A DNA stretch of 64,000 bases from Ancylostoma caninum (lineage: Eukaryota; Nematoda; Chromadorea; Rhabditida; Ancylostomatidae): the NCBI GenBank assembly GCA_037903475.1, contig JBAJFG010000545.1:1178001-1242000 (forward strand). The letters are read 5' to 3'. Of this stretch, positions 510 to 57,641 are shown in pieces. The position numbers and the translations under genes are program-made. Each line of letters begins with the position of its first letter. The first letter of the stretch is position 1. The notes below the pieces were generated by a model. The model saw nothing but the letters and a program-made list of their open reading frames with translations, made no database searches and was not told the DNA's origin.

Positions 510-515
510 TTTATT
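510..515 (-). promoter_or_regulatory. Candidate poly(A) signal AATAAA for the peptide gene at 653-1028
   Basis: The plus strand reads TTTATT, giving AATAAA on the minus strand about 140 bp beyond the stop codon. The position suits a short 3' UTR. Confidence 0.4.
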
Positions 516-652: not shown

Positions 653-1028
653 TTAACCGCTAGTGCGTGGCATAATTCCTGGCTGAGGAGGCCCCATCCA
701 GCCAGGGCGGCCGGGTCCAATGCCGCCAGGCATCCAGGGTGGACGGTGGTATGGAGGATAGTATGGTGGGCGGAAGTATGGTGGTCTATAGTATGGTGGA
801 TAGTATGGTGGCCTGTAGTATGGTGGGTAATACGATGGATAATAGTATGGTGGCCGGTAATATTGACGTTTCACTCGTATTATTCTGAAAATAATGAAGT
901 TTGTCAGCGAATGAGAACATAGAAATGCTTTGATTTTGGACGTACTCATTTTCGGCATGGTGAGGAATTGGTAGAGCATGAACAGAAAGTAGAACAACAG
1001 TTAACAGCAGCACCGAAAAGGACTCCAT
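653..1028 (-). CDS. Secreted Tyr/Pro-rich peptide precursor (R-V-K-R|Q type), two exons
   Basis: Exons are 1028-946 and 884-653, with a 61-bp intron (GTACGT donor, TTTTCAG acceptor, phase 2). The product is 104 aa. Residues 1-19 form a signal peptide (MESFSVLLLTVVLLSVHA). A short pro-segment follows and ends in the furin-type site R-V-K-R. Then comes a roughly 70-residue mature peptide beginning Gln-Tyr-Tyr, built of YRPPYY and YPPYY repeats, with a Gly/Pro/Met-rich tail. The start is fixed by TTTCAG two bases before ATG, which looks like a trans-splice acceptor. Exon length, intron phase and processing site match the genes at 7766-8453 and 11962-14276. By analogy with nematode NLP/caenacin peptides it may be an epidermal or secreted antimicrobial peptide; this is inference. 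A cuticle-associated structural role is the alternative. Confidence 0.78.
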
Positions 1029-1393
1029 ATCTGAAAGCTGTTCTTTAACACAATGCGTAACACTCCACTTCTCTCCACAGCGCTTTTTTGCCAGCACAAA
1101 TTTTTGACGCTTTACATATTTCAGTCATAATAATTCTTGGAGCTGAATTCTATTTCGAAAAGCTTCCAAACAGCAGGTAGCGGATTAACCATCCCTCATC
1201 TATTATCTCTGTGAAATCACTGTTATTTCTAGCTATACTACCTGATCACTGTGTCATAATTGCAATTATTCGGGTCGATGATTCCACAAGGGATACATAA
1301 TCTCATATAACAATAGGAATTAGATGCCATTCTTTGACAGACTGATGCTTTTTTTTTGTTTTTAATAGGAGATAGTGACTTGTAATACTTCTT
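1029..1393 (-). other. Upstream region of the peptide gene at 653-1028
   Basis: No gene was found here. The last bases before the ATG contain GCTTTCAG followed by AT, a probable spliced-leader acceptor. No convincing TATA box was seen on the minus strand. Confidence 0.4.
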
Positions 1394-1527
1394 AGCTGTA
1401 GCTGTTTAACCGGTCATAGAGCTGTTTAACCGAAGATGAAGCTATTTATCCGGTGATGGAGCGATTTATCCTGTGATGGAGCGGTTTATTCGGTAGCGTA
1501 GTAGTTTATCCGAAATAGGCCACGCCC
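1394..1527. repeat. 20-bp tandem array (six units) ending in GGCCACGCCC
   Basis: Six degenerate 20-bp units follow the pattern TGTAGCTGTTTATCCGGTGA and run straight into the block GGCCACGCCC. A four-unit array of the same family, ending the same way (AGCCACGCCC), lies at 9503-9593. This is a minisatellite or the end of a repeat element, not a CRISPR array, because there are no spacers. Confidence 0.75.
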
Positions 1528-1959
1528 TCAGCGAAGAAACAGCTCCCCCCCCCCCTCCCCCGAGAAGAACGGCTAAACGAGTACACCAACTCCACGTCAA
1601 CACTAGGCCCATGTAGCTGAAGAGACCCGTGAACAATTGGAGGAGCCAGGCTGAGACAGTGTTCCCCAGACATCCTATTCCCCTGTCATTGTCCCTCTGA
1701 CTGTCACTTATTTCGCCCCTTTGAGACATTTTTGTCAAAGAAAAAAGAAAAAATTCATCAATTGGAAGATGTTGAAATGGCGGTCAGTGATGTCTTTGAC
1801 TGTCAGCGTCCCCAGTTCTGAGAGTGCTGACCTGCCGAGTAGGTGCGACAGTGTATTCAATAACGATGATGATGATATTTTTAATAAATTCCATTGCTAG
1901 CTAATTTCAAAAAATAAAACCGAAAAAAGATGTCAGACTGCTCAGGACTCTGTTAGCAC
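1528..1959. other. No gene seen
   Basis: The stretch contains a C-rich run near 1546-1560 and short A-rich tracts. No exon with supported splice sites was found on either strand. Confidence 0.4.
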
Positions 1960-2605
1960 TCAACACTTAACGGACAGTACCCTCCGGTGGGTCATTCCTG
2001 TTTTAAGTAGCTTTGGTTGGTGGAATTTTCCCGAAATCTTTGCAAAGGGCTCATTCCACACGCTGATCAGTAATATGATACCCATTTCGTACAGCCGCGC
2101 AGTACTATGCGATCACTGTAAGCACTCTGTAATTACTTAGATGTATAATATTTTCACCCATAATTAAGTGAATCTTAGCACAATAGGATTATTTGACAAG
2201 CTGAATATGGACGCGATTTCCATACTGCGCCAAAGCACATCTTTAGAGGATTTCTGTAACCACATCGTAAATATAGTTTTTCTTTTAGAATACATTAAAA
2301 CCCTGTAGACAGAAGTAATTTCACATGCTGATCTCGAATATAGCATCCAATTTGCATTCTGACACATTTTTGAGAAGTCACTGAGCAAAGTCGGCTCATT
2401 GTGCCCAGTACCCTATATTCCGACTGGTATTGTTATGTGTACCGTAACTCTCCAGCAGCATGTTTCAGTGCAAAATGGATCCCATATTCGTGACAAGCAA
2501 GTGAAATCGCTCTCTTCTCGCAGCTTTGCCAGATTCTGAGGGAGATGACCACCTACAGTACCTACAGTGTGATTATCGTAACCTTACAAAAAGGCTTCAA
2601 CATGC
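1960..2605. repeat. Old diverged copy of the element nested at 55625-56601
   Basis: It starts with CAACACTTAACGGACAGTAC and CCGGTGGGTC, which aligns with the left end of the nested element (CACATAACGGACAATACG and CCGGTGGGTCG). Homology continues through the GCTGATCAG / CCATTTCGTACAGCCGCGC region and the TACAGTACCTACAGTGTGATT region in the same order. It is heavily mutated and its right terminus is not clear. Confidence 0.5.
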
Positions 2606-3817
2606 ACAAACATGCACAACTAACTTCACATTCATTATGTGCGCACCAAATGTACCCTTTCTACAGCTAACTACATAAAAATTAGAGCACAAATCTGCAT
2701 AAATTTAAAGTGGCTCAGAAGGAAAAAACGCTGGTTATCGTCAACGTGTTAGAATACATGGTTAGCTCTTCATGCTTTCGTGGAAAAAAACCACATGACT
2801 GGAAGTAAATTTTAGCGGTATCCTGCGAGACAAACCCAGCTAGAGCAACATATGTAGTCAGTTGAAGAATGAACCACGAAAGAATTAAGGCAGATAAATC
2901 GAGCAAAGAAAATTCAGTCAATTCTCGCTTCGAACGTACCTGTCCCGGTGCGGGGAAGACTCGAGGGACAGATGCGGAACTGCGATGGTTTGGGTGATGG
3001 ACTTCCGCGGCTTTTATATAGGGCAAGTAGAAAACAAAACCCATCTTCCGTCGCAGGTCAACGCCCAATCACAGGACATTCGGCGACCGAAGCTGCACTT
3101 TCGCATTGTTTTTTAAGTGCGTGACGAATTGAAGATAAAACTCTGTTGAAGAAAAATATACTTCAAATTGTGAAAGGTTGTTTTCCACCAATAAAGAAGT
3201 GTTTTCCACGAATGAAATTGTCATCAATGATTTCAGTAACATTTCACTGAAAGCGGTTGTTGGCTTGCTTGATAAGTTCTGAGACACTTTTAGCACATTT
3301 TTCTCAAGTTGACTTCCTAGATTTCTAATTCCAACCAACATCCTGTGAAGTCTTGGTCATCTACGGTGTCCGTCTTTGTTTTTCTTCACCAAACTCCGCG
3401 CGATATGCGTCGACGCAGCTACAGTCCCACTTTTAACCTGATGTTGGAAATCGAACGTCACTTGTCCTCTGGTGATCCATCAGGGCTCTGGATGAGGACA
3501 GCTGGACAGTCATCAGTGCTAGGCTAGTCTTGAATAGTACGTTGTTTAGCGTAGAACTTCTCGATTCCTCAATTTTCTGTCCAGTTTTACAGTTTGAGCA
3601 TGAACATTGCCATACAGAATGTCAACATTCTTCACTTGTAACAGCTGGTCCGTCTTCCAACTTTCCTCAATGGAGTAGCCATTCCTGTAGCACACAGAGA
3701 TGCAAATGAACCCGACGTTTGCCTCCACATAATTCTTCTTTATTCGTGGTAAGGGAAAAGCAAGCGTTGTTACTGTGCAAAAACAGCTGAGACCTATTAT
3801 TTTATTAATATTTATTA

Positions 3818-3852
<35 letters not shown>

Positions 3853-5849
3853 TGTTACCTATTATTTTATTAATATTTCCATAGCCTTTAGTTAAAACTT
3901 CAGAGGGATTTACTTCAGGCCGATTCAAAATCTCACCCATTAACCTGCTCATTCAGAAGTGCAGATGAAAAGTTTCTTGGAACTTATTACCCAATACATG
4001 TGCTTTACCACTGATTTCTATCGCTGGCATTTAAATGCTTATTTTTGGAATGAGAACCATGGTAAAATGTGCTATTGCTGCTCAAACTGAGCATCTCTGT
4101 TAGCTCAATCTTTTATCTCCCTTATCCGAGGGGATGTGAGTCCGAAAACTAATCATGCCAGTTCAGAAAAAATTCCCGAAATGTGCAACTGAAGGTTTTT
4201 GTCGTAGAGCTAGGGTTGTGCGAAAATTTCCGTTTTCCGTTATACGCCCATTTTGGGGCTTGTGTTTCCCGTTTGGGATTTGAAATTTTTACTTCTGCAT
4301 TAGTTCGGACTCACTGCGCAGCGACATTCCTTGTTAGTGCACTCTCTATTCGCACACAATATGGCAAGGGCTCACTCATAATGCTTGTGGTTCTGTTCTC
4401 TATTGAACAGTTTCGCTACTTTACTCTATTGTAATTAGAATAATCTTTGTTCTATGGAAATCGGCCATTATAGATTAGCAGCTATGAGCACAAATCACAT
4501 TGTCCACAAGCCGGTTGATGTCATGTTTCGAAAGATTCACGACAGCTCATCACGGTTTCCTTGACATCATTGTTTTTTCCTGCAACAAACCACAACTGGA
4601 CCGGTCCTGCGCTCCTCGCAAAGATATTAGGGCTGTCTTCCTTATCTCCGCGTTCGTCCTTTTTTTGCTTCATTTTGTTCCATAACTTCTAACGACCCCA
4701 TTTAGATCAGCGGATGTTTGAAGACGGTATCTGCAGAAGTGTTCTTGCCGGAGATTTATGTGTTTTGCAACCTTTGGAATTGATTCGACAATTCTACGAA
4801 AAGTGAAACTCCTGCAAAACTTCCTGGTTCTGGTTCCCTGGTTTCCAAGATATCACAACACGAATCTTCGAGATTGATCTTCTCCGAAAGCTTCATTCCG
4901 AGTATAGATCTTTCCAAACGTCTCTGTTCTATTCTGTTCTGGTGAGTTCTGCGGGAAAAAGAGGGTTTAAAGACCGGGTTACTACAGCATTACAAAGAAA
5001 GTGAAACTACACCGCTCGTCTTTCAAGAAGATCACCAGAGAGCACATGGGCTCGCGCCACAACTGACCGGATACTACACGGAAAAAGTCTGTCGGTCGCC
5101 TTAGAGAAGGGTGGCTAGACGATTCCACCCGATTTACTGGAGTAAGGACCAAAGAATTGCTGGGATATGGACAGATCTGTTCAGTGGTGCCCGTTCTTCA
5201 AGATTCTTCGCCCAGAAAACTAGGAAGAGATTGCTCGTGTCTGTGCGGTAAAGAATCGATAATTGTAATTGTAATTGGGATTTTCGAGATTCAGGATTAA
5301 CAGGATTATCGATTGCGCCGTTCGATCAAGTTGCAAAGGGAACGGAGTGCTACTGTCGACCGATTTAGTGTGGTGCAATTTCTTTTCCTAGGATTACCTA
5401 GCGCACATTTATAGGAAGTGTAGTAAAACAACGACACTTGGAAGACGAGGACGAACGCAAATGGAAACGTAGATATTACAATCATCCACAATTAAGAGAG
5501 CTTTTTTGCAGCATCTTGCGACTTATCCCAAGTTTGACATCCTTTAAATTTTGGCATCATTCTTCCGAATAAGTGAAATGTGCCGTAGCGAAGAAGAGAA
5601 TGAAATATAAAGAATTGTAATAATCTTGGCAATCACAGCTATAAAAAACGCTTCATCTTGAGACTACTATCGAACTTGTTCTGACTTCTCAGGTTGTGTT
5701 TCTTGCAGGGTTCAGCGCAGTGATTTCTGCTCCTCCTCTTTTACTATATGTTATTATTTATTCAGTCAAACTGATCTCGTCGATATTTGATTCCTAAAAT
5801 CTCTCCCTGATTTTAGAACGTTTGGTTTTTTTTGGTTTCAAACGTTGTG
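2606..5849. other. Mostly unannotated; one minus-strand TATA-type promoter candidate
   Basis: No gene could be assembled. On the minus strand CTATATAAAAG (about 3011-3022) is a good TATA box. It is followed about 70 bp downstream by ACAG/GTACG, which could be a 5' UTR exon donor, but no coding exon was placed behind it. A TTA trinucleotide microsatellite lies at about 3795-3855. Confidence 0.3.
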
Positions 5850-6119
5850 TACAGTCCGGTCCGGCAGCCACTGCAAATGGGCGCCGGCGGGCGCCGTCCG
5901 CCGCCACCCTCCGGCGCCCCGGTATTAATGAGCTGTAAATCACTTGAGCTTGGGAGAAAGCGAAGAAAAATACAATTTTAGTCCATAGTAGACAGGGTAG
6001 ATAAGCCTAACCCTATGCTCAAGAATGGGTTTAAGGCTTAGGCTTAGGCTTCACAGGTAAGTGCAAGTGTAAGTAAGATTAGACACTATTTGACACTATT
6101 TGTATGTTGCATCGCGTGC

Positions 6120-6191
6120 GCGCATAGCTCAGTGGGTTGAGCGAATGATCGACGTTGTGGTGGTCAGGGGATCGAATCCTGCCCTGTGCCC
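6120..6191 (+). repeat. tRNA-like module A inside the composite element (not a functional tRNA)
   Basis: A box A match TAGCTCAGTGGG and a box B match GGATCGAATCC sit at tRNA-like spacing, and GCGCATA can pair with TGTGCCC. The cloverleaf is imperfect, so this is a tRNA-derived Pol III promoter relic. The same module recurs in every copy of the element in this window. Confidence 0.7.
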
Positions 6192-6263
6192 CCGCTTTGC
6201 AAATACATATAGTATGCTGCCTACGACTGCTGCAGTTATCTAACAAACTCCAACATAAAAAGT

Positions 6264-6335
6264 AGCCCGGATGGCTCAGTGGTTTGAGTGGCAGATTGCA
6301 ATCTGTCCCTATCGCTGGTTCCACTCCGTTGGAGA
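6264..6335 (+). repeat. tRNA-like module B inside the composite element
   Basis: Box A is TGGCTCAGTGG and box B is GGTTCCACTCC, with a possible anticodon-loop region around AGATTGCAATCT. It lies in the same orientation as module A, about 70 bp downstream. The repeated short ORFs read from it in each copy are not genes. Confidence 0.7.
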
Positions 6336-7027
6336 TCCAGAGTTAAGTATCGCAGTGTTTGGGGTTCACTGCTTGGAACGTCCCCCGTGATCTCCTTCGG
6401 GTAGTCCAGGAAGGCATCCGGCAACGTTTTGCATAAATTTCGAAGATAAACTACGATAAGTGTAAGTGTAAGTAATAGTAATAGTGTAAGTAATAGTGAA
6501 AAACCACTTTTTCAAAGTTGAGGGAAACCGGGAGAGAGTAACTCCGCCGTAAAGGACTGCTCCACGAAAGATAAATGACAGCGGTAGAACTACTTCGCAA
6601 TGGATATGAAACAATTTATACGGATTTCAATTATTTCTGAGGATCCCGAATTGGATGAGCTTTATTATTCAGATGGGATAACTGAAGTACTGTGTCCATC
6701 TATAGAAGAATAACGGCCATTTTTGTATTCGCGAAGCAGTGTACTATAGCAGAAAATGGAAGAGTTGGCTTCGCTTATTGTGTATTCAGAAATCTTTCCC
6801 CATGAAAATCACAAAAATGAAAAAACGTGAAAGTTGTGAAAATGGTCCCCTGCTTTATAGCCTTAACATATCCACTGCACTCTGTCTACTATGGACTAAA
6901 ATTGTATTTTTCTTCGCTTTCTCCCAAGCTCGAGTGATTTATAGCTCATTAATACCGGGGCGCCGGAGGGTGGCGGCGGCCGGCGCCCGCCGGCGCCCAT
7001 TTGCAGTGGCTGCCGGACCCGACTGTA

Positions 7028-7765
7028 GCTACATATATTAAACAAAAAAATAACAAACCAACTTGTTATAAACCTGCAAACATTTGTATACCCAGGACAT
7101 TTACCCCGCTCTACCATTCAAACAGGTGATCGAGCTACACACCAGCTCTTGAGGCCATCATATTTTTTGAACCTTCAGTCCAAGATTGTTATAACCCGAG
7201 TGATTTTCTTGCTCCATGGCACACCTTGCTGTACGATATACATATCTATATAAGCAAATAAAATAGCTAATCAATTCTGTTTTCATATCACTTGGGCATA
7301 TTCCCTGGTAAAACTCTACCAGCGGAAATCTATGTATTAAACGCAATGAAGAATTTCCATTTACGTTCACTAGAGAACGAGTATTATATACATGAAATAG
7401 TCCAGGTATTACAAGAGGGAACGTGCCAATCAGTGGAAATTCATCCAAAATCCGACGGAAAATGCATGAGTGCGCTGCTAATGCTGATTATGTTGGAAAT
7501 TAGCCAGAAATTCGCCAGAAATTTCCGTATTACAGGGAGCAAAGTGCTCCCTTACAGGGTGTGTCGTTGTTGAGCACGTGTTCTACTCGAAACTACCGCT
7601 AAATGGTAAACTGGTGCAGATTGTGGATGAGGTGGAACCTGAAGTGTATTGGTGACAAGTGACGTTCAAATTAGAATTAAAATTTTTATTTCTATATTTT
7701 ATCAAATATACATGTTTTGTTGGGAATGCTTTCAGTGGTAGAGGAATCCCGATTCGGCGTTGTAC
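7028..7765. repeat. Intergenic; carries a dispersed repeat shared with 12447-12549
   Basis: Bases about 7533-7643 (from GAGCAAAGTGCTCCCTTACA to GAGGTGGAACCTGAAGTG) recur in inverted orientation inside the left arm of the composite element at 12380. A 93-codon plus-strand ORF at 7292-7573 overlaps the repeat and shows no family resemblance. A minus-strand AATAAA at 7685-7690 is a likely poly(A) signal for the next gene. Confidence 0.55.
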
Positions 7766-8453
7766 TCATTTGCCCCATCCCATTCCGCCCATTCCGCCCA
7801 TACCCCATCCGCCCATGCCGCCCATGCCCATTCCACCCATCATTTCTGGCGGAGGTCCTGGTGGTGGTGGTCCTGGAGGTGGTGGTCCGGGAGGTGGTGG
7901 TGGTCGTCCCCATCCGCCCATTCCTCCCATCATCCCTCCCCACTGGCGTTTTGAGCGTATTTGCCTGTAAATAAGTTCAATATGCAGAAAAAGCCAACTA
8001 TTTTCCGGAATTTCCTGAAAATCTGAACAAGATAAGAACAGTGAGGCAGCTGAGTAGCGATGCTTGAGGATCAATCTTTTTTTTTCACACTGACTGCCAG
8101 AATATGAAAATTGGATGGTCTGAGACTAAAACATGTTTCCTTTCTTCAATCTCTCGTGACCCTCCACTCCACAAGAATTCACGGATGATTCGGCAGAATG
8201 TTTCAAATATTATATAATGTTGTATTCATTCGAAATCAGTCCTTCTTTCACGGCCAAATTTTTCAAATTTTTTTACAATTTTTGAGTGTCGCTGTAGTTC
8301 GTAACAGCACAAGGGTGTTTAATATAGGAACTTTAGCTAGTCCAGTTGGACAGGACTCCAAAAGAAAACTTACACATCATCCTGTGCTAACGAATACGAG
8401 ACAATGGAGCAGAGAATCGTGGCGAGTACTAAGGCGACCACTGATAACTGCAT
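7766..8453 (-). CDS. Secreted Gly/Met/Pro-rich NLP-29/caenacin-like peptide precursor, two exons
   Basis: Exons are 8453-8374 (80 nt) and 7964-7766, with a 409-bp intron (GTAAGT donor, TTTACAG acceptor, phase 2). The product is 92 aa. Residues 1-24 form a signal peptide (MQLSVVALVLATILCSIVS...). A short acidic/basic pro-segment ends in R-S-K-R. The 59-residue mature peptide begins QWGG, has GGM/GGW repeats around a P/GPPPP core, and ends in MGWGK. An initial Gln (pyroglutamate) and a terminal G-K (amidation signal) are the pattern of C. elegans NLP-29-group antimicrobial peptides; function here is inferred. The acceptor TTTTTAG lies two bases before ATG, suggesting trans-splicing. A minus-strand AATAAA at 7685-7690 gives a short 3' UTR. 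Confidence 0.85.
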
Positions 8454-8787
8454 TTCTAAAAATGGATTTTGAGGAAATTGAGCTATGTGCACGTTGAAAA
8501 TAGCGTCGTGCGACCAACTAAAAACTAACAAAATGTTCGCGGTAATGTGTATTCTGGGGACGATCCATCTTGTCCACAACAACACGAAACGACGAGGAAC
8601 ATGGTTGAAAATCCCACAAGCTTCTCGGAATGTTCCCTCTTGGGTAAAATATGGGAAATGGGGACGAGGAATGCTGTACGAATCCTCTTGCCACTCATCA
8701 AAGAGATAGCGGCGAATTTGGGGTGACACCTTTGGAGGAACCGTTCCACTCGGGATAGGTTCTGAGATTCTCAAGTGGAAAGAAACT
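8454..8787 (-). promoter_or_regulatory. Upstream region of the peptide gene at 7766-8453
   Basis: About 330 bp separate the ATG from the composite element copy at 8788. The region ends in CATTTTTAG/AAATG, a likely trans-splice acceptor. No clear TATA box was seen. An in-frame upward extension exists, but the acceptor and signal peptide fix the start at 8453. Confidence 0.4.
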
Positions 8788-9502
8788 TCCCTCAACTTTG
8801 AAAAGTGGTTTTTCACTATTACTTACACTGTTACTATTACTTACACTTACACTTATCGTAGTTTATCTTCGAAATTTATGCAAAACGTTGCCGGATGCCT
8901 TCCTGGACTACCCGAAGGAGATCGCGGGGGACGTTCCAAGCAGTGAACCCCAAACACTGCGATACTTAACTCTGGATCTCCAACGGAGTGGAACCAGCGA
9001 TAGGGACAGATTGCAATCTGCCGCTCGAACCACTGAGCCATCCGGGCTACTTTTTATGTTGGAGTTTGTTAGATAACTGCAGCAGTCGTAGGCAGCATAC
9101 TATATGTATTTGCAAAACCGGGGCACAGGGCAGGATTCGATCCCCTGACCACCACAACGTCGATCATTCGCTCAATCCACTGAGCTATGCGCGCACGCGG
9201 TGCAACATACAAATGGTGTCCAATCTTACTTACACTTACACTTATCGTAGTTTATCTTAGAGATTTAGGTGAAAAGGGAGTTGTGTGGGGCCACTCCTGT
9301 GAAGCCTAAGCCTAAGCCTTAAACCCATTCTTAAGCATAGGGTTAGGCTTATCTACCCTGTCTACTATGGACTAAAATTCTATTTTTCTTCGCTTTCTCC
9401 CAAGCTCGAGTGATTTATAGCTCATTAATACCAGGCGCCGGAGGATGGCGGCGGCCGGCGCCCGCCAGCGCCCATTTGCAATGGCTACCGGACCGGACTG
9501 TA
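8788..9502 (-). mobile_element. Composite inverted-repeat element, truncated copy, reverse orientation
   Basis: It matches the complete copy from the TCCCTCAACTTTGAAAA region through module B, module A and the GCCTAAGCC repeats to the GC-rich arm ending GGACCGGACTGTA. The other arm is missing. It sits about 330 bp upstream of the start of the QWG peptide gene and could affect its promoter. Confidence 0.8.
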
Positions 9503-9593
9503 GCTGTTTATACGGTGATGTAGCTGTTTATCCGACAGTGTAGCTGTTTATCCGGCAATGTAGCTGTTTATCCGCAAGAAGCCACGCCCCATC
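9503..9593. repeat. 20-bp tandem array (four units) ending in AGCCACGCCC
   Basis: Four units of TGTAGCTGTTTATCCGnnnn start directly at the end of the composite element and end in AAGCCACGCCCC. It is the same family as the array at 1394-1527. The abutment to the element arm suggests both belong to one larger repeat or a common insertion hotspot. Confidence 0.75.
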
Positions 9594-11961
9594 GGATAAA
9601 CAGCTCGCCGTCCGGAAGGAATGTAGCAGAAAACCGAAAGAACCGCAGGTCACCTGCTAGAGATGTCATGTCTCTGAGATGTCATCGTCTTGACGGCGAA
9701 ACCTGGGAAATCGCCCGACACTGGAGAAGCAATCATCCTTTTTGAAGGATGCTATGGCAATCTAATTCTTCTAATCTTGTTTCTCCCTATATTACCACAC
9801 TAAAATAGGTAGAGAATGCATAGAATTCAACACAGAAAGAATATAATAAGTTCTAATGTTTGAAGAGATGTAGGCGATGTGACTTACTGATTATCCGGTA
9901 ACTAGTTGCCCTTTTATAAGACGTCGCTGATCCACATCTATTACTTCGTTCGCTGTTCGTCCAACAGCGGAAGGCTATTTCACGAATGAGTGCTTGCAAA
10001 ATGTAGAAACTGCGGTGCTTTGTTTCTCAGTTCGTTTTGATTACACGAGAAAAAAGCATGGAACAGGTACGAAGTTGATCTTGATCTTGTGCACTTCGCT
10101 GGGAATGCTGCAGTTCCACAGTATCTTTGGATGAAAACAAGAATAAAACCACTTAGTGACGCTTCCATTAGTGTAGTTTGCCTAGTAGGATCGACCGCTC
10201 AAACAAAGTTCCGTTCCATTTTCCTGAGTGAACACTCATCCTCTGCGTCCTCTGCAACTAAGCCATTAGGTTTTGTTTCTTGAGACTTATTAGAATATTT
10301 CGTAAATGACTCACTCTCATTTATCAGCAACGGGCCATAATTAGTTAGCTATCTGCTCAGCCCATTAATTTCTTTTAGATTGGGCAAGTCTTATTCATAG
10401 GTTATTTTTCATAGTTGCTCATACGGATGAGAAATAACTAGTTTTTCTCTTCAATAAACACATAGCACTTCCGGCCGAAGACTTTGCACCCTACTTCAAT
10501 ACATACTTTTGGCTTGATCGATCCGTGTTCCCACTCACAGGTCGCTTTCGGAATCCATGCTGTGTTGAAGATTGGGTTCCTTGTTTTCGTGTTGACTCTA
10601 TCTCATCAGGGTTTTCCTAACGGTATCTTGCACATTATTCGTGTCGCTTGCTTCATGCTTTGTTGCATGTGGCTTGGTGATCATTCGATAGGGCCCACTG
10701 ACTCACGGATTTGCATCACATGTCATTCCTGCATGGTCATTTTGCTATTAGAAGTTCCTTTCTGTGTTCCTCAGATGTTTACGAAAGGTGTACAGGGTAC
10801 GTGAGAAGTACTGACCATCAATGACCAATCTTACTTACACTTACACTTATCGTAGTTTATCTTAGAAATTTAGGTGAAAAGGGAGTTGGGTGGGGCCACT
10901 CCTGTGAAATGAAAGGTGGTGTCGCAGCGTAGACAATACGCATGCAACCATGCGACTCTTACATATGAGTGGAAAAAATTTGTAAAAAAAAATAGTTTCC
11001 TCGATTGGACCGCCTCTGCCCTGCATACTCTGATGAAGACGATGCACTGGAGGTAGTGAACTTAAAGTTCGTCCCAGGATTTGACCAGATCTGCTTCCAG
11101 CAAGTTAACTCTTTTGTAGGGGAAGTGTAGTGCTTCACCCACAATTGTGTCTAGGAGAAGGTCAGGACAATTAGGAGCCCATTTTGCCACCAGTGCCATG
11201 TAATGAATTGCGCATTATAATCGGAATCGGATTAGATTTTCCATCCTATAGGCAGATGTGAGTGGAAAAATTCCTGCAGTTCTTAGCTCTTGACCCTCTT
11301 TTTTCTGATTGGAAAGCCGTTGATTCCGCTGCTGCATCTCTCATTTTCTGCTTGGTGTGTTGCAGCAGTGACATTTAAGCAGTACCAGTTTCGCTGGCAC
11401 ACTGACTGCTAAATTTCGAATGGGAGAACTGCTCAAATCGTTAGAGATTGGGCACTGAAATGAAGAGAAGACATCAATTATAACGCGGCAATGAGCGTTT
11501 TTCTGAACTCAAAAACGTGTTGTGTCGTTAATTTGATGGTTTCGTCTCGAAAATTCCTTCAACTGTCTGTGTTGCGGTCAAAGAATATGCGTTGAATCAA
11601 TTTGTTGGGGGTTTGGAGCTCGAACGGATACATCATCAGGATCATCATAACCTTTGGATGGCTCATGCTTCTGTAGGAAAAGCGTAATTTGCGTGAGGTT
11701 TGCATGAAATGCGTGCCGATTTCTTGCCTCTGCTGTCAGAAAAAGTGAGATTTGCATAACTTCAAGCACATGCTCCTGAATCCAATCATGGATTACGACC
11801 AAAAAAAAAAACACGAGCTCCTCTGAAGATTTTATGTATAGCACAGCATGCATTCGTATTTACATGAAAATTCCGAAAGCTTATCAAGGAGAAGTAGCAC
11901 AGCATACATATAAAGATCGTTACAAATATATCCAATGAGATTTCTACGAGCACCGACGTGT
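9594..11961. other. Intergenic; one fragment of the composite element
   Basis: About 10820-10906 matches the internal TTACTTACACTTACACTTAT / AGTTTATCTTAGAAATTTAG segment of the composite element. No coding exon was confidently seen elsewhere. A plus-strand segment after CACTCACAG (10540) encodes a hydrophobic run but lacks other support. Confidence 0.4.
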
Positions 11962-14276
11962 TCACTGCCTCCAGGGTCCGAAGCCGTACCATGGGCGTGC
12001 CCATCCCATGCCGTATCCCCACCAAGGACGGTAGTAGTAGCCCCACGGTCTAAATCCGAAGCCCCATGGACGCCAGGGTAGCCATGGTCGATAGAATGGC
12101 ATGCCCCAGCCCCATTGACGCTTGGTGCGGAGTGATCTGGAACATTTCATTCTTGTTTATCCCTCTTATTTTTGGATATTTTCGCAGAATTTTATTTCTT
12201 TTCCCAGAATGCGATTCGACAGGACTCTCGAAATAACGTAGTAGTAATAATATATATTAGTAGTAACACTGAATGATATCACTTACTACTACATTACTAT
12301 TGTATTATTACATTGCTACTACTACATTATTATTATACTGTTACATTACTACTACAGTAATACAATAATAAACATCAAATACAGTCGGGTCTGGCAGCCA
12401 CTGCAAATGGGCGCCGGCGGGCGCCGGCCGCCGACGCCCTCCGGCGCTTCAGGTTCCACCTCAGCAAATTTCACCATTTTACCAATTAGCGGTAGTTTCG
12501 AGTAGAACACGTGCTTAAAAACGACAGACCCTGTAAGGGACCACTTTGCTCATCGCCATCCTCCGGCGCCCCGGTATTAATGAGCTATAAATCACTCGGG
12601 CTTGGGAGAAAGCGAAGAAAAATACAATTTTAGTCCATAGTAGACAGAGTGCAGTGGATATGTTAAGGCTATAAAGCAGGGGACCATTTTCACAACTTTC
12701 ACGTTTTTTCATTTTTGTGATTTTCATGGAGAAAGATTTCTGAATACACAACAAGCGAAGCCAACTGTTCCATTTTCTGCTATGGTACACTGCTTCGCGA
12801 ACACAAAAGTGGCCGTTGTTCTTCTATGGATGGACACAGTACTTCAGTTGTCCCATCTGAATAATAAAGCTCATCCAATTCGGGATCCTCAGAAATAATT
12901 GAAATCCCTATAAATTGTTCCATATCCATTGCGAAGTAGTTCTACCGCTGTCATTTATCTTTCGTGGAGCAGTCCTTTACGGCGGAGTTCTTCTCTCGCG
13001 GTTTCCCTCAACTTTGAAAAAGTAGTTTTTCACTATTGCTTACACTATTACTATTACTTACACTTACACTTATCGTAGTTTATCTTCGAAGGAGTTTTCC
13101 ACTGTTACTTACACTTACACTTATCGTAGTTTATCGCCGAAATTTATGCAAAACGTTGCCGGATGCCTTCCTGGACTACCCGAAGGAGATCACGGGGGAC
13201 GTTCCAAGCAGTGAACCCCAAACACTGCGATACTTAACTCTGGATCTCCAACGGAGTGGAACCAGCGATAGGGACAGATTGCAATCTGCCGCTCGAACCA
13301 CTGAGCCATCCGGGCTACTTTTTATGTTGGAGTTTGTTAGATAACTGCAACAGTCGTAGGCAGCATACTATATGTATTTGCAAAACGGGGGCACAGGGCA
13401 GGATTCGATCCCCTGACCACCACAACATCGATCATTCGCTCAACCCACTGAGCTATACGCGCACGCGATGCAACGTACAAATGGTGTCCACTATTACTTA
13501 CACTTACACTTATCGTTGTTTATCGCCGAAATTTATGCAAAACGTTGCCGGATGCCTTCCTGGACTACCCGAAGGAGATCACGGGGGACGTTCCAAGCAG
13601 TGAACCCCAAACACTGCGATACTTAACTCTGGATCTCCAACGAAGTGGAACCAGCGATAGGAACAGATTGCAATCTGCCGCTCGAACCACTGAGCCATCC
13701 GGGCTACTTTTTATGTTGGAGTTTGTTAGATAACTGCAGCAGTCGTAGGCAGCATACTATATGTATTTGCAAAACGGGGGCACAGGACAGGATTCGATCC
13801 CCTGCCCACCACAACGTCGATCATTCGCTCAACCCACTGAGCTATGCGCGCACGCGATGCAACGTACAAATAGTGTCCAATCTTACTTACACTTACACTT
13901 ATCGTAGTTTATCTTAGAAATTTAGGTGAAAAGGGAGTTGGGTGGAGCCACTCCTGTAAAGCCTAAGCCTAAGCCTTAAACCCATTCTTAAGCATAGGGT
14001 TAGGCTTATCTACCCTGTCTACTATGGACTAAAATTGTATTTCTACAATATATAATAATGATACTACTACTATAGTGATACTACTACTACCACTATTTTT
14101 TATATATTAGTAATTGCGGAGTTATTACATGATATAAACATTTTTCAGAAATAAAGTTGGAAACAAACCAAACTGTAGACAAAGCTAAAAACGAACCTAG
14201 GCTCGTACTCGATCTCTTCCAGAGCACTGCATGCCACAATTGCAACTACGAAAATAACTAGCAGTAGCGGTCTCAT
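11962..14276 (-). CDS. Secreted Trp/Arg/Pro-rich peptide precursor (R-T-K-R|Q type), intron invaded by an element
   Basis: Exons are 14276-14197 (80 nt) and 12136-11962, with a 2,060-bp phase-2 intron (GTTCGT donor, TTCCAG acceptor). The product is 84 aa. The signal peptide MRPLLLVIFVVAIVACSA is followed by an acidic pro-segment (LEEIEYEP), the site R-T-K-R, and a 51-residue mature peptide starting QWGWG. That peptide contains five RPW motifs and about 11 tryptophans, an extreme composition suggestive of a membrane-active antimicrobial peptide (inference). TTTTCCAG lies two bases before ATG. A TATATATT box lies about 70-80 bp upstream (14345-14353). The long intron contains the composite element at 12380-14041, while the two paralogues have introns of 61 and 409 bp, so the insertion explains the size. 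Confidence 0.82.
12235..12379. repeat. TAC/TAT trinucleotide microsatellite, left part
   Basis: A run of ACTACT/ATTATT triplets ends exactly where the composite element begins. A similar run (TACTACTACTATAG...) resumes at 14042-14100 after the element. The element therefore inserted into a microsatellite within the intron. Confidence 0.7.
12380..14041 (-). mobile_element. Composite element copy with internal 389-bp tandem duplication and a disrupted arm
   Basis: It starts with the arm TACAGTCGGGTCTGGCAGCC. The arm is interrupted at about 12447-12549 by an inverted copy of the repeat at 7533-7643. The block carrying tRNA-like modules B and A is present twice with a period of 389 bp (landmark GCCGAAATTT at 13136 and 13525). 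The far end stops at GGACTAAAATTGTATTTCT, so the outer GC-rich arm is missing. The copy lies in reverse orientation inside the intron of the peptide gene at 11962-14276. Confidence 0.85.
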
Positions 14277-14344
14277 TTCTGGAAAATCCTTAGTTTATCC
14301 TGGGAAACATGAGGAAAGAGTAAGACGCAAGGTGTTGTCGAACA

Positions 14345-56798: not shown

Positions 56799-57641
56799 CG
56801 TTTTGCAAATACATATAGTATGCTGCCTACGACTGCTGCAGTTATCTAACAAACTCCAACATAAAAAGTAGCCCGGATGGCTCAGTGGTTCGAGCGGCAG
56901 ATTGCAATCTGTCCCTATCGCTGGTTCCACTCCGTTGGAGATCCAGAGTTAAGTATCGCAGTGTTTGGGGTTCACTGCTTGGAACGTCCCCCGTGATCTC
57001 CTTCGGGTAGTCCAGGAAGGCATCCGGCAATGTTTTGCATAAATTTCGAAGATAAACTACGATAAGTGTAAGTGTAAGTGTAAGTAATAGTAATAGTGTA
57101 AGTAATAGTGAAAAACCACTTTTTCAAAGTTGAGGGAAACCAGAAGAGAGTAACTCCGCCGTAAAGGACTGCTACACGAAAGATAAATGACAGTGGTAGA
57201 ACTACTTCGCAATGGATATGGAACAATTTATACGGATTTCAATTATTTCTGAGGATCCCGAATTGGATGAGCTTTATTATTCAGATGGATAACTGAAGTA
57301 CTGTGTCCATCTATAGAAGAATAACGGCCATTTTTGTATTCGCGAAGCAGTGTACTATAGCAGAAAATGGAAGAGTTGGCTTCGCTTACTGTGTATTCAG
57401 AAATCTTTCCCCATGAAAATCACAAAAATGAAAAAAAAACGTGAAAGTTGTGAAAATAGTCCCCTGCTTTATAGCCTTAACATATCCACTGCACTCTGTT
57501 TACTATGGACTAAAATTGTATTTTTCTTCGCTTTCTCATAAGCTCGAGTGATATATAGCTCATTAATACCGGGGCGCCGGAGGGTGGCGGCGGCCGGCGC
57601 CCGCCGGCGCCCATTTACAGTGGTTGCCGGACCCGATTGTA

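Follow-up and report, generated by a model that had tools for sequence, protein, structure and literature searches.

Three small genes on the minus strand of an Ancylostoma caninum contig, here called A, B, and C, are probably members of a genome-wide family of small secreted pre-pro-peptides, with a proposed surface role and BLI-4-type maturation. They lie in a 64,000-nucleotide (nt) stretch of assembly GCA_037903475.1 (contig JBAJFG010000545.1; C10:1178001-1242000 in our notation), referred to below as the window, within a genome of 348 Mb in 638 contigs. A processing module consisting of a signal exon, a phase-2 intron, a short prodomain, and an RxKR-Q site is the fixed part of these precursors; the mature part differs in composition from one subfamily to the next, although the closest copies preserve it well. 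All gene structures are models predicted from the DNA, and their parts in the window are as follows.

946..1028, minus strand: gene A exon 1 (model, 83 nt, donor GTACGT), signal peptide and start of the prodomain (MESFSVLLLTVVLLSVHALPIPHHAEN plus a split codon)
653..884, minus strand: gene A exon 2 (acceptor ATTTTCAG), end of the prodomain, RVKR, and Tyr/Pro-rich mature peptide
866..877, minus strand: gene A convertase site RVKR-Q
1031..1037, minus strand: gene A trans-splice-type acceptor CTTTCAG, 2 nt before the ATG
510..515, minus strand: gene A possible poly(A) signal AATAAA, picked out by eye
8374..8453, minus strand: gene B exon 1 (model, 80 nt, donor GTAAGT), signal peptide and start of the prodomain (MQLSVVALVLATILCSIVSYSLAQDD plus a split codon)
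7766..7964, minus strand: gene B exon 2, end of the prodomain, RSKR, and Gly/Met/Pro-rich mature peptide QWG...WGK
7946..7957, minus strand: gene B convertase site RSKR-Q
8456..8462, minus strand: gene B trans-splice-type acceptor TTTTTAG, 2 nt before the ATG
7685..7690, minus strand: gene B possible poly(A) signal AATAAA, picked out by eye
14197..14276, minus strand: gene C exon 1 (model, 80 nt, weak donor GTTCGT), signal peptide and start of the acidic prodomain (MRPLLLVIFVVAIVACSALEEIEYEP plus a split codon)
11962..12136, minus strand: gene C exon 2 (acceptor TGTTCCAG), end of the prodomain, RTKR, and Trp/Arg/Pro-rich mature peptide
12118..12129, minus strand: gene C convertase site RTKR-Q
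14279..14285, minus strand: gene C trans-splice-type acceptor TTTCCAG, 2 nt before the ATG

The three genes span 653-1028 (A), 7766-8453 (B), and 11962-14276 (C). An earlier note on this DNA had credited them with a signal exon of 80-83 nt, a phase-2 intron, a second exon that starts six to seven codons before the mature peptide, a prepro-region of 33-34 residues, RVKR, RSKR, or RTKR directly before Gln, and three different low-complexity mature types, and its description of these genes was accurate. Exon 1 measures 83, 80, and 80 nt in A, B, and C, the introns (61, 409, and 2060 nt) are all in phase 2, exon 2 begins six full codons and the split codon before the mature peptide, the prepro-regions have 34, 33, and 33 residues, and the sites and the Tyr/Pro, Gly/Met/Pro, and Trp/Arg/Pro compositions are as described. 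The full products comprise 104, 92, and 84 residues and the mature peptides 70, 59, and 51. The mature peptide of A starts QYY, carries a charge of +7, and is 11% Gly; that of B is 41% Gly; and that of C has 11 Trp, a charge of +6, and 20% Gly. A fourth gene that the earlier note did not contain, A2, is a near copy of A (mature peptide 13% Gly) and lies 5.5 kb outside the left end of the window, at window positions -5492 to -5861 (C10:1172139-1172508, minus strand). The window and 100 kb on either side of it (264 kb) were scanned in six frames for an [RK]x[KR]R site followed by a tail of 25-160 residues in which four residue types make up more than 60%. Only five places were found, and four of them are A, B, C, and A2, which share a strand within 20 kb. 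Whole-genome protein searches returned only A and A2 for A, only C for C, and B together with one match on contig C232 (E 0.87) for B; no RxKR peptide was present in the frames listed for the C232 match. A Pfam search of A, B, and C with E values up to 1 gave no match, Col_cuticle_N included, and no collagen repeats were seen in them.

Around these genes, a dispersed repeat with the same translated stretches among its open reading frames lies at window positions 6079-6511, 8710-9260, 13018-13917, and 56842-57123, between and inside the genes, and two of its copies sit within the 2060-nt intron of gene C. On the minus strand at about 3020-2940, TATATAAAAG is followed by a stretch ending CAG/GTACG (by eye); together they are possibly a promoter and a first noncoding exon about 2 kb upstream of gene A. 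Rfam at its gathering threshold and a tRNA scan gave no lead in the window, and Pfam returned only weak matches, under the curated cut-offs, for ten other window reading frames.

The family was followed through the genome with the patterns RxKRQWG and RxKRQYG, each with its reversed pattern as control, and with five protein queries, and its size as given here is a lower bound set by these patterns and queries. RxKRQWG has 31 matches compared with 13 for the reversed control. Apart from B and C, contig C49 holds 13 of them (616.9-910.7 kb), C595 five, and C183 two, with the other nine scattered. In 24 of the 31, B and C included, the match is gene-like and stands at the head of a short exon that encodes a small secreted peptide. 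Outside the window these are 19 of the 20 clustered loci and three of the nine scattered ones; at all 22, RxKR follows 1-4 codons after the acceptor of a short open exon, and the donor of a signal exon lies 56-259 nt before that acceptor. The RxKRQWG excess and the four of five places in the local scan are more than chance would give, and the idea of a clustered gene family of secreted precursors, with a furin-type site split from the signal exon by a phase-2 intron, is supported. Gene A, which starts QYY, stands outside these matches. A protein query added three QFG members (L075-L077, two on C49 and one on C35), and a query with a C595 member retrieved a QCG locus on C175 (L078, RVKRQCG) that looks like a further member. 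The largest cluster comprises 14 modelled RxKR-Q[WF]G genes (L046-L050, L052-L058, L075, and L076) in about 300 kb (C49:616946-910703), 11 of them on the minus strand. The members at C595:826573-841874 (L061-L064) and L078 form a subfamily: behind a middle portion that varies, they end in a conserved tail of the approximate form RRP-x-V-[VI]-x-KTV-[IV]-Y[RK]. Two modelled C49 members look unlike the rest: L058 has a run of six cysteines after QWGG and L052 ends in FCWC. Seven of the 31 matches were left out of the models. Six of these are not gene-like (L066, L068, L069, L071, L072, and L074, the last without an encoded KRQ). The seventh, L051 (C49:747800-749700), has a phase-2 acceptor at its RxKRQWG exon and an odd product containing a run of nine cysteines; a signal exon was sought at the locus and none was found.

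The 29 resulting models (A, B, C, A2, the 22 QWG loci outside the window, and the three QFG loci) have a common design. All have a hydrophobic N-terminus, which was a selection condition for most of them, and an R-x-[KR]-R site behind the predicted signal peptide; since 24 were found through the RxKR motif itself, the presence of the site in those 24 is no independent test. The intron is in phase 2 in 29 of 29. Because phase 2 had been imposed on most of the models, acceptors at 22 loci were rescored without the phase constraint, and the best one was in phase 2 at 21, the exception being L070. For L048 the donor was shifted to agree with the neighboring genes. Exon 1 ranges from 56 to 122 nt, which makes the 80-83 nt seen in A, B, and C no family-wide trait, the prepro-region from 27 to 48 residues, and the intron from 56 to 2060 nt, for total lengths of 59-104 residues and mature peptides of 32-70. 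A trans-splice-type acceptor (score of at least 10, at most 6 nt from the ATG) precedes 18 of the 29 genes compared with 128 of 4072 control ATGs, the threshold having been tightened after a looser first count of 19 in 26 genes against 959 in 4072 controls (24%). The genome also holds 388 exact copies of the SL1 leader and none of its reversed control.

In terms of the peptides themselves, the prodomain, for which a simple -3,-1 rule set the point of signal cleavage, is negative in 23 models and uncharged in six. The mature part carries a positive charge in 26 of 29; of its 1329 residues over all models, 103 are basic and 8 acidic. It ends in Gly in 21 models and in Gly-Lys in four (19 of 23 when redundant peptides are removed), leaving C, L052, L056, and L065 as exceptions; for Gly alone the binomial probability against a 36% Gly content is 6.9e-5, a value that overstates the case because paralogues are not independent. 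Since a C-terminal Gly or Gly-Lys can be amidated, amide ends are possible, as is pyroglutamate at the N-terminal Gln. Such ends, together with a convertase site, are also what would be expected if these were neuropeptide-like precursors that each yield one amidated pyroglutamyl peptide for release from neurons or glands. We regard that as very improbable, since each precursor would give a single low-complexity product of 32-70 residues, A, B, and C lack short peptide copies between dibasic sites, four of the 29 lack an amidation end, and the genes are duplicated in large clusters.

The earlier note went on to propose that exon 1 and the cleavage site are conserved while exon 2 has been replaced, as in fast-evolving host-defense peptides. 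The site does recur in A, B, and C, but exon 1 does not share its conservation: compared without RxKR, the three leaders are no more similar than region-wise shuffles (z 0.4, -0.3, and 0.8), and between these unlike genes neither exon is recognizably conserved outside the site. The same comparison gives z 13.1 for A/A2 and 18.1 for L049/L060; a z of 2.6 (p 0.02) for A/L058 is one of 15 leader comparisons and was not counted as homology. Replacement of exon 2 is rejected as well, since in the closest pairs it is the mature part that is better kept. Between A and A2 the mature part is 95% identical, with nonsynonymous (dN) and synonymous (dS) divergences of 0.031 and 0.160, and the leader is 82% identical (dN 0.100, dS 0.437); at the DNA level exon 1, intron, and exon 2 are 82%, 84%, and 95% identical. 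Mature and leader identities are 93% and 60% for L046/L047 and 98% and 89% for L049/L060. Of 17 within-subfamily pairs, 13 have a higher identity in the mature part than in the leader, one is tied, and three show the reverse; these last four all come from C595, where leaders are 67-78% and mature parts 62-72% identical, a fifth pair is nearly level, and the middle of the mature part varies in length. Low-complexity composition inflates mature identity (B and L049, hardly alignable by descent, reach 71%), and for this reason only pairs of at least 90% identity weigh much. Nor is fast host-defense evolution borne out. Wherever a pair gave a usable dS, its mature dN/dS was below 1; leader dN/dS approaches 1 in three C595 pairs (0.97, 0.91, and 1.06), and no adaptive change appeared in these pairwise tests, which are gene-wide, are compatible with episodic selection, and leave gain and loss of repeat length uncounted.

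A number of these results, and some others, weigh against placing A, B, and C in one family of defense-like surface peptides. Because exon-1 homology is absent, the argument for a common origin of the three genes is their architecture and proximity, and A and A2 share only the architecture with the wider family, having neither QWG nor its Gly content. RxKRQYG shows no genome-wide excess (10 matches compared with 24 for the control); a general excess of RxKRQ-aromatic-Gly was rejected on this count, and the motif excess holds for QWG only. The imposed phase and the tightened trans-splice threshold are weak points of the case, and 11 of the 29 genes fall short of that threshold (five on C595, L052, L054, L056, L067, L070, and A2, where the acceptor close to the ATG of A is not kept and the nearest lies 14 nt upstream). 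Gene C ends in -WRQ, without an amidation end. GATA sites are expected upstream of epidermal genes driven by ELT-3, and none were enriched upstream of these genes (0.48 compared with 0.86 per 300 nt); TATA motifs, listed without a control set, gave no lead. Finally, the Tyr/Pro composition of A and the mature dN/dS below 1 speak against defense. The missing exon-1 homology, the lack of QWG in A, and the fact that genome searches with A, B, and C never retrieved one another, could mean that the three genes are unrelated and gained RxKRQ and a phase-2 intron independently, with at most B and C belonging to the wider QWG family. We consider this unlikely given the shared strand within 20 kb (A2 included), intron phase, intron-to-site spacing, and site, and given that A, B, C, and A2 account for four of the only five comparable sites in 264 kb.

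What the site means can be read from the cuticle collagens of the same genome. Col_cuticle_N has 150 matches here (150 scored of 208 candidates) and none in 14 control genomes. Among 20 of the 150 collagens, chosen by hand and mostly high-ranking, RxxR-Q was found by eye in 13, with exact RxKR-Q in four (L031, L032, L042, and L043); in three others RxKR precedes a residue other than Gln (L040, L044, and L045). BLI-4 appears to cut many C. elegans collagens at RxxR; when the site is mutated, collagens are poorly secreted and form intracellular puncta, and this convertase is reported to act in late secretion or in preventing premature aggregation (PMC11304992). The family resembles nematode cuticle collagens in this N-terminal RxxR site, which that source attributes to BLI-4, and differs from them in that A, B, and C lack both Col_cuticle_N and collagen repeats and family products have only 32-70 residues. 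With RxxR-Q in collagens of the same genome, the site suggests a surface secretory route and does not separate defense from structure; RxKRQ as a defense signature was rejected accordingly. The collagen sites also suit a quite possible alternative in which the peptides are structural proteins of the cuticle or precuticle, secreted at moulting, released by BLI-4, and packed or cross-linked (e.g., via tyrosines) in epidermal or pharyngeal cuticle, any defense being incidental. The Tyr/Pro-rich, Gly-poor gene A, the unenriched GATA sites, and a mature dN/dS below 1 between near copies fit such a role, as does the C. elegans pharyngeal cuticle, which is rich in secreted low-complexity families (PMC9629831). 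On the other hand, the very short length of the mature peptides and their mostly basic charge, with acidic residues scarce, speak against it, and a terminal Gly or Gly-Lys suggests soluble, blocked peptides over matrix proteins. Short length, mostly cationic charge, scarce acidic residues, a mostly acidic prodomain, possibly blocked ends, and clustering speak for a surface barrier peptide, slightly more defense-like than structural.

Several known peptide families invite comparison. The QWG start and WGK end of the gene B mature peptide presumably resemble those of NLP-29 peptides. The NLP-29 peptide directly follows its signal peptide, unlike the arrangement found here, where a prodomain and RxKR precede QWG. 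As in the C. elegans NLP-29 cluster and the caenacins (CNC), which encode Gly/Tyr-rich secreted antimicrobial peptides, the genes are small and clustered (PMC2453101). Branch tests in that study are reported to show adaptive change in four branches of the nlp-29 cluster, in contrast to the pairwise mature dN/dS below 1 in this family. Glycine-rich secreted peptides (GRSPs) have been defined by a length of at most 200 residues, a signal peptide, a mature Gly content above 17%, and a top-five BLAST hit to a C. elegans GRSP (PMC10506718). Our models share the short length, a putative signal peptide, and, in 25 of 29, a mature part with more than 17% Gly; unlike GRSPs in this respect are A (11%), A2 (13%), L062 (9%), and L064 (just under 17%). 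B and C are thus GRSP-like in Gly content and also in length, and A, at 11%, is not. GRSPs are defined by composition, the present family by a shared RxKR-Q precursor design. Clade 9/V, including the hookworm and trichostrongyle superfamilies, is reported to be rich in putative antimicrobial peptides, and the same GRSP study also ran a furin-site predictor, so relatives of this family may already stand in its supplement (PMC10506718). The pharyngeal-cuticle families IDPA, IDPB, IDPC, APPG, NSPB, and FIPR, compared by their description, are likewise low-complexity secreted surface proteins that come in families; unlike the genes described here, they carry no mention of furin or RxxR in the main text of PMC9629831. 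A literature search for the peptide strings found no paper, and further searches on furin, cuticle, GRSPs, and the secreted peptides of nematodes turned up no description of the exon-split RxKR-Q design.

Taking BLI-4-type maturation and a surface role as our preferred reading, we propose the following sequence of events. The acceptor sites suggest that the mRNA would be trans-spliced, and the signal peptide would be removed in the endoplasmic reticulum. The short, usually acidic prodomain may keep the mature part, which is mostly cationic and aromatic/Gly/Pro-rich, inactive and in solution while it is being secreted, until a BLI-4-type proprotein convertase, for which the observed RxKR is the putative site, cuts after it. 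The new N-terminal Gln could then cyclize to pyroglutamate and a C-terminal Gly or Gly-Lys could be converted to an amide, which would block both ends, and the peptide would be deposited on an epidermal or pharyngeal surface. By analogy with NLP-29, the caenacins, and glycine-rich secreted peptides, it may serve there as an antimicrobial barrier, for which the case is about evenly balanced; a mainly structural role in the cuticle ranks slightly below it. A further-reaching idea, and a speculative one to which we give no great weight, is that the one secretion-processing module acts as a platform for unrelated low-complexity mature sequences. On that doubtful view, Tyr/Pro, Gly/Met/Pro, Trp/Arg/Pro, Gly/Trp, His/Gly, and Tyr/Arg types, the last with a conserved KTVxYR tail, would all be carried by it, and the outcome could conceivably be a large repertoire of surface peptides gated by a convertase and blocked at both ends.

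A shared RxKR-Q with differing mature parts is not in itself proof of rapid evolution for defense, a caution that extends beyond the genes in this window. If BLI-4-type release is true, an acceptor, a few codons, and RxKR-QWG would together form a motif for finding short peptides that GRSP searches based on composition are unable to set apart. Such release would also place one enzyme over both cuticle collagen maturation and a whole arsenal of surface peptides, and moulting, barrier repair, and defense would be linked.

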